From assembly GCF_003781945.1 (NCBI RefSeq), contig NZ_RJJW01000006.1, forward strand, positions 1 to 64,000: a stretch of 64,000 nt of DNA, in the 5' to 3' direction. This document shows positions 6,141-44,815 of the stretch, one piece after another; the stretch's first letter is position 1, and each line of letters begins with the position of its first letter. The notes under the pieces were generated by a model. That model saw only the letters and a list, made by a program, of their open reading frames with translations, had not been told where the DNA came from and made no database searches. The stretch is from Halorubrum sp. CSM-61 (lineage in GTDB: Archaea > Halobacteriota > Halobacteria > Halobacteriales > Haloferacaceae). Both the position numbers and the translations under genes were made by a program.

Positions 6141-6450
6141 CGGTTGATGCGGTCGGCGCGCGCCTGTGAGCGCCCGAAGGGCGCGAACAGCGCCGCGCGA
6201 GGGAGGCGGGCGCCCGGAGCAACGCGGAGGGCGACCGACGAGGCTGGAGAGGCGTGAGGCTGTGCGGTGCTGTGTGAACGGGTGGGTCCCAAAGGGGCAG
6301 CCGTGAGGCGCCCAGAGACGACGCAAGCACCGCAGGAACGAGTGTAACGAGTGACGAGGAGCGCAGCGAGTGTCTGGGCGCCTCACGGCTGGGGCTTTAG
6401 AGGCCCTCGCCGTCGATCCGCAGTCAATCACTTATAAGCGAGCGGTTGGG
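6141..6450 (+). repeat. Dispersed hairpin element, copy A (forward)
   Basis: First of four related copies. It runs from tgcggtcggcgcgcgcc, through aggctggagaggcgtgagg and gtgggtcccaaaggggcag, to a perfect 18-bp hairpin (6299-6316 with 6373-6390) whose loop carries gcaagcaccgcag and gaggagcgcagcgagtg. It then ends ggctggggctttag ... cgatccg ... cacttataagcgag. It fills most of the 6063-6585 gap. Copies B, C and D share these blocks in the same order while the hairpin-arm sequences differ. No convincing ORF lies inside it. Confidence 0.85.
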
Positions 6451-13798: not shown

Positions 13799-14766
13799 GG
13801 CTCCGGTCCCTCCGATCGGGTCGGCTCCGGCCGATATTCTTCAGATCGATCGACCTGCTCCTCGGATCGATTCATCTCGTCGATCGCCCGAGCGACCGCC
13901 ACCTCGAACGGCGTCTGATCGATCGGAACGAGATCGCGGATCCGGTCGTCCTCGACGATCACGGTGTTGCGGAGCCCCTCGACGAGCGACCGCGCGAGGT
14001 AGGGGTTCACGTCGGTGACCAGCCGGAGCCACTTCGCCGACAGCTCCGGGCTCAGTACGGGCACCCGAATTATCCGTAGCCTGTGACCGAGCTGACGGCG
14101 GGTCCGACGGAGGATCTCCGCGTACGTCAACACGTTTGGGCCGCCGATCTCGAAGGTGTCGCCGGCGGTCGCCGGCTCTTCGAGTGTCCCGAGGAGGTAG
14201 CCGACCACGTCGTCGATCGCGATCGGCTGGCAGAGAGTGTCGACCCACTTCGGCGTGGTCATCACCGGGAGCCGGCTCGCGAGGCCGTAGATCACGTCGA
14301 AGCTCGCGCTGCCGGCGCCGACGATGATCGCCGCTCGCAGGGTCGTGAGCGCCGGCTCGCCGGTTCCGAGGATCCGCTCGACCTCGCGGCGGGACCGCAG
14401 GTGCTCGGAGAGGCCCTCGCGGTCTTCGCCGAGCCCGCCGAGGTAGATAACCCGGTCGACGCCCGCGTCCGACGCCGCCTCGACGAAGTTTCGAGCGCAG
14501 TTGCGGTCCCGCTCCTCGTAGCCTGGACCGCCGTCCATCGAGTGGACGAGGTAGTAGGCGGCGTCAACGGGGGAGCCGTCGACCTCGAACGCGGGCGGGA
14601 GGGTGTCGGGTTCGAGGAGGTCGCCCTCGACGACGCGAACGCCCGCGGGCGGAGCGTAGCCGTCGGCGTCGCGGACCAAGGCGACCACCTCGTGACCACG
14701 GTCGAGGAGCGCCGGGATGAGCCGGCTGCCGACGAATCCGGTGGCGCCGGTGACGAGCACGCGCAT
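13795..14766 (-). CDS. NAD(P)-binding epimerase/oxidoreductase (atypical SDR)
   Basis: 323 aa. Rossmann-fold atypical short-chain dehydrogenase with the dinucleotide motif TGATGFVGSRLIPALLDRGHEV at the N terminus, the YYLVHSMDG strand near residue 80 and VIYLGGLGED near 110. The catalytic YxxxK is replaced, as in the NmrA/NDUFA9-like subgroup, so it may bind NADPH without classical epimerase chemistry. ATG at 14766 gives MRVLVTGATGF; longer readings are not supported. First gene of a two-gene operon with the membrane protein. Confidence 0.85.
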   Translation of the reverse strand: MRVLVTGATGFVGSRLIPALLDRGHEVVALVRDADGYAPPAGVRVVEGDLLEPDTLPPAFEVDGSPVDAAYYLVHSMDGGPGYEERDRNCARNFVEAASDAGVDRVIYLGGLGEDREGLSEHLRSRREVERILGTGEPALTTLRAAIIVGAGSASFDVIYGLASRLPVMTTPKWVDTLCQPIAIDDVVGYLLGTLEEPATAGDTFEIGGPNVLTYAEILRRTRRQLGHRLRIIRVPVLSPELSAKWLRLVTDVNPYLARSLVEGLRNTVIVEDDRIRDLVPIDQTPFEVAVARAIDEMNRSEEQVDRSEEYRPEPTRSEGPEP

Positions 14767-33537: not shown

Positions 33538-33840
33538 CGCGGCGAACACCTCCAAAGCCCCAGCCGGTGAGGCGGGCGCACGCTCGCTGCGCTCCTCACT
33601 CCGTCGCTAGCGCTCCCTCGTTGCGGTGCTTACATCGCCTGCGCCCGCCTCACCGGCTGCCCCTTTGAGTCCCACCCCGACCGCACCGCAACCGCACCTC
33701 ATGCCTCCCCAGCCTCGCGGTTCGCGCTCTCCGAGCGCTCACCGCGTCCCTCGCACCGTCGGCTCGCGGCCCGCGGGGCCGCTCGCCGGGGCGCGCCGGC
33801 CGCACGGTCGCTTATAAAGCCCCTGCTCACGTCCGGCGAT
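33538..33840 (-). repeat. Dispersed hairpin element, copy B (reverse)
   Basis: Read on the minus strand it gives the same block order as copies A and D: a TTATAAGCGA head (33810-33818), gcgagggacgcggtgagcg, gaggctggggaggcatgagg, gtgggactcaaaggggcag, then a perfect 19-bp hairpin (arms 33562-33580 and 33640-33658), then ggctggggctttggaggtgttcg. It occupies most of the 33451-33879 gap; the remainder is promoter for the next gene. Confidence 0.85.
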
Positions 33841-36626: not shown

Positions 36627-36739
36627 CCGATCACCCCGACGACCCCGGTCATGTCTCCCCCTTCTCTCCGCCGCTTATTAAGAACCCGTCCGAACAGTGT
36701 GTCCGTGTCCACCGGTCGACGGGACCACATTCGTCGCCT

Positions 36740-36853
36740 CCGCCGGCAGTCATCGTCTCCGCCGGCAGTCATCGCCTCCGCCGGCAGTCATCGCCTCCGC
36801 TGGCAGTCATCGTCTCCGCCGGCAGTCATCGTCTCCGCCGGCAGTCGCCGCCT
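36740..36853. repeat. 19-bp tandem repeat (VNTR), six copies
   Basis: Unit ccgccggcagtcatcgtct, with position 17 c or t; the fourth copy has ccgctgg and the sixth has gtcgccgcct. The array ends two bases into the stop codon of serB. Units are nearly identical, so the array is recent or actively homogenised. It lies in the 225-bp gap between crtY and serB. Confidence 0.92.
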
Positions 36854-37496
36854 ACTCTGCGGGGAGCACGTCGTATCCCTCCAGCACCTTCCCGAGGCGG
36901 AACATCGAGGCGACGACGGCGTCGCACACCGGTCGGACCGCGTCCTTGGGAACGAAGCCGATCGCGATCCCCGCGACCTCCAGCATCGGGAGGTCGTTCG
37001 CGCCGTCGCCGACCGCGACCGTGGAGGCCATCGGAATCCCGAGATCGTCGGCGAGCTCGGCCAGCGCGTCGTCCTTCGTCCCCTCGATGAGGGGACCCTC
37101 GGCCTCGCCGGTGAGAGCCCCGCCGTCCATCGGGAGGCGGTTGGCGACGATCGTGTCGGCCTCGACGCCCTGCTTCGCGAGCGCGCGCTCGACCCCGCGC
37201 TCGAACCCGCCCGTGAGCACGGCGACGTGGTGCCCCTCGGCCTGCAGGCGCTCGATTAACTCTCCGGCGCCCGGCCGGAGCGCCACCTCGTCGAACGCGG
37301 CGTCGACCTCGTCCTCGTCGAGCCCACCGAGCAGCTCCGCGCGCTGGTAGAGGCTCTCGGCGTAGCTGAGTTCGTCGTTCATCGCCCGCTCCGTAATCCG
37401 TGCCACCTCGTCGGCGACGCCCGCGCGCCGCGCGAGCAGGACCGTCATCTCGGAGTCGGAGAGCGTGCCGTCGAAGTCGAACGCGATGAGGCTCAT
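36852..37496 (-). CDS. serB: Phosphoserine phosphatase
   Basis: 214 aa HAD-superfamily enzyme making serine from phosphoserine. Motif I FDFDGTLSDSEM (nucleophile D7, general acid D9), motif II AVLTGGFERG near 93, and motif III lysine with motif IV GDGANDLPML near 168 are all present. The cap region ERAMNDELSYAESLYQRAEL is typical of SerB. Pairs with serA at 47 kb for the phosphorylated serine pathway. Its stop codon touches a 19-bp VNTR. Confidence 0.93.
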   Translation of the reverse strand: MSLIAFDFDGTLSDSEMTVLLARRAGVADEVARITERAMNDELSYAESLYQRAELLGGLDEDEVDAAFDEVALRPGAGELIERLQAEGHHVAVLTGGFERGVERALAKQGVEADTIVANRLPMDGGALTGEAEGPLIEGTKDDALAELADDLGIPMASTVAVGDGANDLPMLEVAGIAIGFVPKDAVRPVCDAVVASMFRLGKVLEGYDVLPAE

Positions 37497-38755: not shown

Positions 38756-38910
38756 TGTCGACGGATCGGCAGCGACCTCTCCAAAGCTCCCAGTCGCTCG
38801 GACATAAAATGTCGATGACGGATCGACGAACACCTTCCAAGCCCCAACCGCTCGTTTATAAGTGATTGCTCACACCGGATCGACGGTGAACGCCTCCAAA
38901 GCCCCAGTCG
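38756..38910 (-). repeat. Three degenerate tail units of the hairpin element in tandem
   Basis: Read on the plus strand, each about 50-58-bp unit runs cggatcg(ac)...(a)cctctccaaagc(t/c)cc(a)...(g)ctcg. Units: 38756-38800, 38801-38851 and 38852-38910, the last being the true tail of copy C. The middle part matches the tail of copy A closely on the other strand: caatcacttataarcgagcggttgg. They fill the gap between the 64-aa membrane protein and copy C. Confidence 0.7.
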
Positions 38911-39215
38911 CGAGGACGCCGCACGCTCGCTGCGCTCCTCAGTCGCTCGCTTCACTCGCTCCTCAGTCGCTCGCTTCACTCGCTCCTCAGTCGCTCGCTT
39001 CACTCGCTCCTTCCGGTGCTTACGTCGCCTGCGGCGTCCTCGCGACTGCCCCTTTGAGTCCCACCCCGCACAGCACCGCCCCGCACCTCACGCCTCCCCA
39101 GCCTCGTCGGTCGCCCTCCGCTTCGCTCCGGCCGCCCGACTCCCTCGCGCGGCGCCGCTCGCGGGCCGGAGGCCCGCTCACAGGCGCGCGCCACCGCAGT
39201 TCGGTTATAAACCAC
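38885..39215 (-). repeat. Dispersed hairpin element, copy C (reverse)
   Basis: Minus-strand order: TTTATAACCGA head (about 39202-39210), tggcgcgcgcctgtgagcg, cgaggctggggaggcgtgagg, gtgggactcaaaggggcag, a perfect 18-bp hairpin (38906-38923 with 39030-39047), ggctttggaggcgttc. Inside the loop a 24-bp unit (cagtcgctcgcttcactcgc and tcct) is repeated three times exactly (38940-39011). No supportable gene inside. Confidence 0.85.
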
Positions 39216-39480
39216 TACGCTGACGGCTACTCCGATCGAGGTCATCGTCGCCTCTCTCGTCGTCGCCTCTCTCGTCGTCGCCTCTCTCGCCGTCGCCTCT
39301 CTCGCCGTCGCTCCCGTCCGGCTCACCGACCGCGTGATGCGGCCCGACCGGCCCGTGCGTCAGACAGACGCCGGCGATCGGGGTCGCGTTGAGACAGCAG
39401 GCGCGCTGCTGGCTCGCGATGGCGCCCCGAGAGAGGGGCTCCCCGCAGAGGCGGCAGTACGACTCCTCGTCGCCCGCCAT
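39205..39480 (-). CDS. Small zinc-binding protein with a GERGD repeat tail
   Basis: 91 aa. N-terminal MAGDEESYCRLCGEPLSRGA has a C-x2-C knuckle, followed by QRACCLNATPIAGVCLTHGP with further Cys/His, so one zinc site is likely. The C-terminal third is a low-complexity tail made by four copies of a 15-bp DNA repeat (39246-39305) encoding GERGD/DERGD. Translation stops at a TAA inside the TTATAA motif at the head of repeat copy C. The tail therefore appears to have been shaped by repeat expansion and by insertion of the element. Function unknown. Confidence 0.7.
   Translation of the reverse strand: MAGDEESYCRLCGEPLSRGAIASQQRACCLNATPIAGVCLTHGPVGPHHAVGEPDGSDGERGDGERGDDERGDDERGDDDLDRSSRQRSGL
39246..39305. 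repeat. 15-bp tandem repeat, four copies, inside a gene
   Basis: Unit cgtcgcctctctcgt (last base t, t, c, c in successive copies), a multiple of three so the reading frame is kept. Confidence 0.9.
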
Positions 39481-42724: not shown

Positions 42725-44491
42725 ATGGACGCCGACGCCGTGCGCGAGCGGGCCGCGGACCTCCCGACCGAGCCCGGCGTCTACCAGTTCCGGGTCGGGG
42801 AGACGACGCTGTACGTCGGCAAGGCGGTCGACCTCCGCGACCGCGTCAGGTCGTACGCCGACCCGCGCTCGGGGCGCATTCGGGGGATGGTCGGGCGCGC
42901 CGACCGGATCGAGTTCGCGGTCACCGACACGGAGACGCAGGCGCTCTTACTGGAGGCGAACCTGATAAAGCGGCTCCGCCCCCGATACAACGTCCGGCTG
43001 AAAGACGACAAGTCGTATCCGCTGGTCGCCTTCTCCGACCACGAGGTCCCGCGGATCGAGGTGACGCGGGACCCCGAGGCTGGCGCGGTCGCGTACGGCC
43101 CGTTCACGAACAAGGGCCGCGTGGACGCCGTCGTGAAGGCGATCCGCGACGAGTACCTCCTCCGGGGGTGTTCCGACCACAAGTACGCGAACCGCGACCG
43201 CCCCTGTCTCGACTACGAGATGGGGATCTGTTCGGCCCCCTGCACCGGCGAGATCGACCCCGAGAGCTACGCCGAGGACGTGGCGGCCGCCCGCCGGTTC
43301 TTCGAGGGCGAGACGGGCGTCCTCGCCGACCCCCTGCGCCGGCGGATGGAGGCCGCCGCCGAGGCGAACGAGTTCGAGCGCGCCGCGAACCTCCGGGACC
43401 GGCTCGAGGCGGTCGAGGCGTTCCACGGCGAGGGCGGCGAGGCCGTCAGCGACCGCACCGACGACCGCACCGTCGACGTGCTCGCGGCCGCGGTCGAGGG
43501 CGACACTGCCCGCGTCGCGCGGCTCCACAGCGAGCGCGGCCAGCTGGTCGACCGCAGCCGACACCAGTTGGACGCGGCGGCCGGGGACGAAGACGAGGGA
43601 GACCACGCCGGAGAGGACGCCAACACCCCCGCCGCGGTGCTGTCCGCGTTCCTCGCGCAGTACTACGCCGAGCGGGAGTTCCCGGACGCGGTCCTCCTCG
43701 CCGAGCACCCCTCCGACCCGGACGTGGTCGACTGGCTGGAGGCCGAAGGGGTCTCGGTCCACGTCCCCGGCGCGGGGCGGGAGGCGAAGCTCGTCGAGCT
43801 CGCGCTGAAGAACGCTCGGAAGCGCGGCGGCCGCGAGGACCCGGTCGGCGCGCTCGGCGAGCGGCTCGGCGTCTCCCGCCCCGCCCGGATCGAGGGGTTC
43901 GACGTGAGCCACGCGCAGGGGACGGCCGTGGTCGGCTCCGACGTGTGCTTCGCCGACGGGAGCGCGGAGACGAGCGGCTACCGCCGGAAGAAGCTCACCG
44001 ACCGCAACGACGACTACGCGAACATGCGCGAGCTGGTCCGGTGGCGCGCCGAGCGCGCGCTCGCCGGCGAGGACGATCGCCCCGACCCCGACCTCCTCCT
44101 GATCGACGGTGGCGAGGGCCAGCTCGGGGCCGCCCGCGACGCCCTGGCGGAGACGGGCTGGGACGTGCCGGTCGTCGCCTTGGCGAAGGCCGAGGAGCTG
44201 GTGGTGACCCCGACCGGCACGCAAAAATGGCCCGACGACGCCCCGGAGCTTCACCTGCTCCAGCGCGTCCGCGACGAGGCGCACCGCTTCGCCGTCTCCT
44301 ACCACCAGACCGTCCGCGACGAGGTCAAGACGGTCCTCGACGACGTGCCCGGCGTCGGCCCCCAGACCCGCCGCCGGCTCCTCCGCCGGTTCGGATCGGT
44401 CGAGAGCGTGCGCGACGCCTCCGCGGACGATCTCACCGACGTCGACGGCATCGGCGACGCGACCGCCCAGACGCTGCGAGAGCGTTTATAA
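42725..44491 (+). CDS. uvrC: Excinuclease ABC subunit C
   Basis: 588 aa nuclease making the two cuts in nucleotide excision repair. GIY-YIG domain at residues 15-95 ([20 protein letters not shown], then [20 protein letters not shown]), a cysteine cluster ([25 protein letters not shown] region, about 150-175), the UVR UvrB-contact motif near 200-235, an RNase H-like 5' nuclease domain ([29 protein letters not shown]) and two C-terminal HhH motifs ([20 protein letters not shown] and on). The stop TAA lies in the TTTATAAG head of repeat copy D. uvrA and uvrB are not in the window. Confidence 0.96.
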
Positions 44492-44815
44492 GTGAGCGAT
44501 GCGGTCGGCGCGTGCCGCCGAGCGCCCGCAGGGCGCGAGGTGCACGCGCGAGGGACGCCGTGAGCGACGGGCGACCGGAGGGAGCCCCGAGCGAGCGGCG
44601 AGGCTGGGGAGGCGTGGGGCGCGGTTGCGATGCGGTTGGGTGGGACTCAAAGGGGCAGCCGCGAGGGCGGCGCAGACGACCCAAGCACCGCAACGAGGGA
44701 GCGAACACCGTGAGCGACCGAGTGAGGAGCGCAGCGAGTGTGCGGCGCCCTCGCGGCTGGGGCTTTGGGGGCGTTCACCGCCGATCTGCTGTTCGCTATT
44801 TATAAGCGAACGGCC
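44485..44815 (+). repeat. Dispersed hairpin element, copy D (forward)
   Basis: TTTATAAGTGAGCGATGCGG head, agcgcccgcagggcgcgagg, gcgagggacgccgtgagcg, gaggctggggaggcgtgggg, gtgggactcaaaggggcag, an 18-bp hairpin with one mismatch (44657-44674 with 44741-44758), ggctggggctttgggggcgttc, and a tail ending tatttataagcga. It fills the uvrC-thpR gap. The thpR promoter follows at about 44849. Confidence 0.88.

Follow-up and report, generated by a model that had tools for sequence, protein, structure and literature searches.

Bacterial chromosomes carry palindromic intergenic repeats such as REP/BIME, ERIC and NEMIS/Correia, which occur in hundreds of copies and are enriched near the 3' ends of genes. 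In haloarchaea, palindrome-associated transposable elements (PATEs) and SMRs were described in Haloquadratum walsbyi (PMC3119063). Hairpin terminators near gene 3' ends, one of which was shown to terminate transcription, were described in Haloferax volcanii (PMC7237163).

Four copies (A to D) of a dispersed repeat were found in the window, the 64,000-nucleotide stretch of Halorubrum sp. CSM-61 DNA analysed here. With REP/BIME, ERIC and NEMIS/Correia the repeat shares a palindromic and chromosomal character and the REP/BIME-like features of high copy number, intergenic position and proximity to gene 3' ends, on which we base no claim of membership. In contrast to these bacterial repeats, it is archaeal and class-wide, its fold is far longer and contains a tandem GA zipper, and its arm sequence is not fixed. 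PATEs and SMRs are likewise non-coding, dispersed, numerous, haloarchaeal and palindrome-containing, and they too have short terminal-only versions and other elements nested inside. PATE palindromes, however, lie close to the termini and resemble IS605 ends in sequence (PMC3119063), whereas in our element the arms vary by copy, an internal structure of ~120 nt contains the GA zipper, and the element is kept without a Y1 transposase. The H. volcanii terminators resemble it as haloarchaeal hairpins near gene 3' ends; unlike them, it has no T stretch, it is oriented independently of the gene and its conserved fold is much longer. Covariation, G.U preference and conserved unpaired linkers are shared with the structured RNA families of Rfam 15, yet our element matches none of these families and reaches at least 100 copies per genome. 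When Rfam 15 covariance models were run against the window, SSU rRNA alone was returned; near the element P34 appeared at E=5, and no family reached the gathering score there. The open literature searched contained no description of the element.

Anatomy and range of the unit

The sequence-only reading had placed a hairpin at 44655-44760. The hairpin is real, but this span covers the element only in part: the hairpin, here called P3, occupies 44648-44767, and the unit 44486-44805. Two upstream hairpins, P1 and P2, are part of the element. The features of the unit and of the other three copies are as follows.

44486-44805, + strand: unit, copy D, about 314 bp; P1, P2 and P3 with TTATAA at either end
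44486..44491, + strand: left TTATAA, from the sequence; its last three bases are the uvrC stop codon
44508..44549, + strand: P1, stem GCGCGTGC..GCACGCGC around an inner stem with GA/GA closure, from folding; 113 P1 variants
44556..44600, + strand: P2 hairpin between GAGGGA and AGGCTGGGGAGG, from folding; sequence varies from copy to copy
44601..44612, + strand: conserved linker AGGCTGGGGAGG, from an alignment of 48 copies
44648..44767, + strand: P3, with a CAAAG/CTTTG basal stem, GGG/GGG internal loop, 18-19 bp stem and GA zipper; covariance model R1, 123.7 bits
44676..44739, + strand: zipper, first read as a "loop"; 2-bp steps split by conserved tandem GA/GA, from covariation and RNA + strand folding
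44800..44805, + strand: right TTATAA, 32 nt 3' of CTTTG
6290..6399, + strand: P3 of copy A; R1 119.6 bits, arms pair 18/18
33553..33667, - strand: P3 of copy B; R1 127.2 bits, arms pair 19/19
38897..39056, - strand: P3 of copy C; R1 116.8 bits, arms pair 18/18

The pairing of the arms within each copy, claimed from the letters, was reproduced in A, B and C over their full length (18/18, 19/19 and 18/18) and in D (44648-44767) at 17 of 18 positions. The CAAAG/CTTTG stem around a GGG/GGG internal loop was likewise found in all four copies, copy A ending in CTTTA. In the aligned copies the order of the unit is TTATAA, P1, GAGGGA, P2, the GAGGCTGGGGAGG linker, GGGTGGGACTCAAAGGGGC, P3, GGGGCTTTGGAGGTGTTCACCG and TTATAA. 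In 105 of 161 copies the leader has TTATAA on its left, and the commonest spacing from CTTTG to the right TTATAA is 32 nt (53/99 copies). Copy C (38897-39056) contains a tandem repeat of a 24-bp zipper segment, indicating that this segment can duplicate as a unit. The window also holds direct tandem repeats unrelated to the element, of 19 bp and 15 bp, at 36709-36860 and 39242-39316.

The exact pattern CAAAGGGGCAGNCG..CGGCTGGGGCTTTG gave 106 matches in the CSM-61 genome and its reversed form none. All 53 Halorubrum genomes searched contain the unit. In genome G022, 122 copies were counted. Within the order, the P3 covariance model matched 92 of 146 genomes from 40 of 56 genera, including, outside Halorubrum, Halolamina (79.9 bits), Halohasta and Halobium. 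By DNA search, genomes with matches, many of them weak, numbered 127 of 171 in the family and 177 of 292 in the class. Units appear to be rare on plasmids and phages: in the collections searched, phage records gave no match and plasmid records three weak matches only.

Covariation and the folding strand

Arms that differ among copies and pair within each copy had been taken as a sign of selection on a folded molecule. This pattern extends well beyond the window. At least 11 of the 12 outer pairs are Watson-Crick pairs in 143 of 169 copies, compared with about 17% when the 5' arm of one copy is combined with the 3' arm of another. In alignment A1, comprising 108 diverse copies from many Halorubrum genomes, 92.9% of the cells of 24 stem pairs are paired, and 16 of the 24 pairs have changed on both sides. 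The covariation score of A1 was 0.250; shuffled partners scored 0.084 and slid partners 0.064 or less. Column pair 16-122 displays a stepwise CG/UG/UA series (76, 19 and 12 copies). P2 paired better with its own partner than with a shuffled one (0.598 vs 0.474).

The hairpin loop is not a true loop. RNAalifold carries the helix through it as a zipper of strongly covarying 2-bp steps separated by tandem GA/GA. The steps at columns 38/39, 48/49, 51/52, 56/57, 60/61 and 64/65 pair with 101/102, 92/93, 89/90, 85/86, 81/82 and 77/78. Between the four innermost steps, conservation of the GA dinucleotides is 96-100% on either side of the helix. For a tree-aware test of 107 copies, substitutions were re-placed along a FastTree tree in 100 replicates and scored with an APC-corrected G test, a home-made imitation of R-scape and not R-scape itself. 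Eight pairs were significant at E<0.05 (61-81, 28-112, 29-111, 57-85, 49-92, 21-118, 38-102 and 31-109); all eight fall within the proposed structure, four of them in the zipper, and none outside it. The covariation anticipated by the sequence-only reading was thus borne out, and together with the G.U excess described below it supports the selection on a folded RNA or hairpin DNA that had been suggested.

Mismatches point to the strand that folds. Among 152 unique copies selected with a filter blind to mismatch type, the outer 12 bp of the stem contained 47 G.U and 7 A.C cells. Similar ratios were obtained for the zipper (45 vs 6) and P1 (32 vs 8), and parsimony over all pairs gave 75 G.U and 12 A.C changes. 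Since an A.C on this strand is a G.U on the opposite one, the + strand is the folding strand. A strand-biased C>T mutation was rejected as the cause of the excess because G>A and C>T are symmetric in conserved unpaired columns (2.4% and 2.6%). Folding of 108 copies recovered 91% of the zipper pairs with the + strand as RNA, 35% with the - strand as RNA, and 23% and 13% with the + and - strands as DNA, whose energy parameters may undervalue tandem GA. Given the G.U excess and the RNA folding, selection acts on a single folded strand, which is most likely RNA. Both G.T and tandem GA are acceptable in single-stranded DNA as well, so that RNA is favoured by these data and not proven.

Gene context, the uvrC site and mobility

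Neighbours of 105 copies were predicted with a simple gene caller. Units prefer convergent gene ends: 53 of the 105 copies lie between convergent genes, whereas convergent pairs flank 89 of 610 gaps longer than 60 bp (15%) and 66 of 216 gaps longer than 250 bp (31%). Fifteen copies are located between divergent genes. In tandem gene pairs 15 copies are sense and 22 antisense. A simple 3'-UTR role is disfavoured, because such a function should produce a sense bias in tandem pairs. TTATAA was considered as a promoter of the full RNA and rejected. Transcription starts are expected 27-30 nt from such a motif; the start would land inside the 5' arm of P1, and TTATAA is therefore badly placed to serve the whole RNA.

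Copy D lies directly behind uvrC, where insertion and inheritance can be compared. The uvrC-thpR gap measures 394 bp in the CSM-61 genome, 28 bp at locus L053 and 80 bp at L056. The L056 gap contains one TTATAA and is shorter by the unit length (314). Among the uvrC sites read, all filled ones have TTATAA at the stop codon and the empty ones lack it, except L056. P3 is found directly 3' of uvrC in eight Halorubrum, namely CSM-61 and seven others (halophilum, distributum, trapanicum, coriense, xinjiangense and two further Halorubrum), whose uvrC genes are 17-35% divergent from that of CSM-61 at silent sites. The arms differ among these copies and the fold is the same, with 0-2 defects per stem. 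An inherited copy in neutral decay should have several broken pairs. The persistence of the fold could alternatively stem from conversion by other copies. In H. lipolyticum the copy after uvrC (L047) consists of P1/P2 and the tail without P3, the joint reading GGGTGGGGCTTTGG.

Dispersal and empty sites show that the element is mobile, and mobility could be the sole source of selection. The best of the alternatives weighed here, which we nevertheless consider unlikely, is that the fold serves transposition in the form of single-stranded DNA, in the manner of IS200/IS605 elements and their passengers such as PATEs and REP. A HUH transposase would read the folded top strand, with one TTATAA flanking the element as left cleavage site and the other forming its right end. 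The fixed places of TTATAA at both ends, the 314-bp unit set against uvrC-thpR gaps as short as 28 and 80 bp, the orientation without sense bias and the PATEs of Haloquadratum (PMC3119063) are all consistent with this mechanism, and strand-specific G.T tolerance is likewise expected of single-stranded DNA. On the other hand, a Y1 transposase (PF01797) gave no match in 11 of the 53 Halorubrum genomes, all of which carry the element, and in many copies. Across the Halorubrum genomes copy number and Y1 count are uncorrelated (rho 0.04, p 0.76), and dependence on a Y1 transposase was rejected on this ground. Moreover, the zipper was not recovered with DNA parameters, inherited uvrC copies retain the fold, and scarcity in plasmid and phage records would be unusual for a transposon.

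An ordinary MITE, in which a transposase selects for recognition of the ends only and the internal hairpin is incidental, is improbable. About 30 copies in the CSM-61 genome are indeed enclosed in a MITE whose long terminal inverted repeats read GGCTCTGTTGAAATCC...GATCGATAGCGGGAGTGGGTAT, but these ends are not seen on most copies, including the four of the window, and constraint is tightest on the internal fold, which is common to several genera. A transposase with matching ends was not found in the CSM-61 genome; the sole IS6-like transposase family seen there was rejected as the mover, as its ends differ. The MITE-like subfamily (L020-L041, e.g. L023, L028 and L033) is younger, with terminal inverted repeats of ~26 to >90 bp that start with GGCTCTGTTGAAATCC.

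Least probable is that template switching or gene conversion at the DNA level keeps the arms complementary with no selection on folding: loops inverted between the arms (2/169 copies) and the insertion into loops of short perfect hairpins that differ in sequence fit such events, but conversion would have turned GA/GA into GA/TC, cannot produce the 75:12 excess of G.U, is spoken against by the CG/UG/UA steps at column pair 16-122, and is refuted as the source of covariation in the zipper, where GA/GA is kept while the intervening pairs change in step. Conversion-like events do occur and are rare.

Several rearranged copies were noted. In L046 (101-220, - strand) and the L175 copy at 13846 (- strand) arms and flanks are normal but the stretch that the arms enclose is inverted, as after recombination between the inverted arms. 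Series of perfect hairpins, 7-10 bp long with 3-base loops and differing in sequence, are inserted in P3 or the leader (L043 from 11938 on, L059 from 11939 on, L022 and G043:C1:155819), and in one copy they replace P3. Tandem units of ~57-66 bp (GGCTGGGGCTTTGGAGGTGTTCACCG...CGAGC) follow P3 on its 3' side in L129, L140, L142, L144 and L150, L129 having several almost identical repeats.

A candidate structured RNA at gene ends

Taken together, the evidence favours a folded RNA strand that is maintained at its sites and is part of an element that spreads as well. In our proposal, which we hold with about as much confidence as doubt, Halobacteria carry throughout the class a dispersed, chromosomal, non-coding repeat (~300 bp in Halorubrum), the + strand of which is under selection for folding, most likely as RNA, with a role at 3' ends. 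Of this, the repeat, the fold, the covariation specific to one strand, the retention of the fold at a single inherited locus and the bias towards convergent gene ends have been demonstrated; the action as RNA, the role at 3' ends and the manner of spread are proposed. Transcription through the intergenic space would bring the strand into play as RNA, and it would fold into P1, P2 and the long rod P3. The rigid rod may then mark or protect RNA 3' ends, or limit read-through between neighbouring genes; this control of 3' ends is the least certain step. Copies may have spread as non-coding passengers, some within the MITE with long terminal repeats. More tentatively, the element might represent a family of structured RNAs found across this archaeal class and not described before, present in up to hundreds of copies per genome and acting in place at gene ends through a long tandem-GA zipper helix while its stem sequences drift freely.

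Covariation of this density suffices to define the structure without experiments, and the at least 100 natural variants per genome make the function of the element directly testable. If the proposal is true, a natural long helix in which 2-bp steps alternate with tandem GA pairs would exist in a high-salt cytoplasm, and a whole archaeal class would possess a reiterated, conserved nucleic-acid fold absent from Rfam and from the literature searched.
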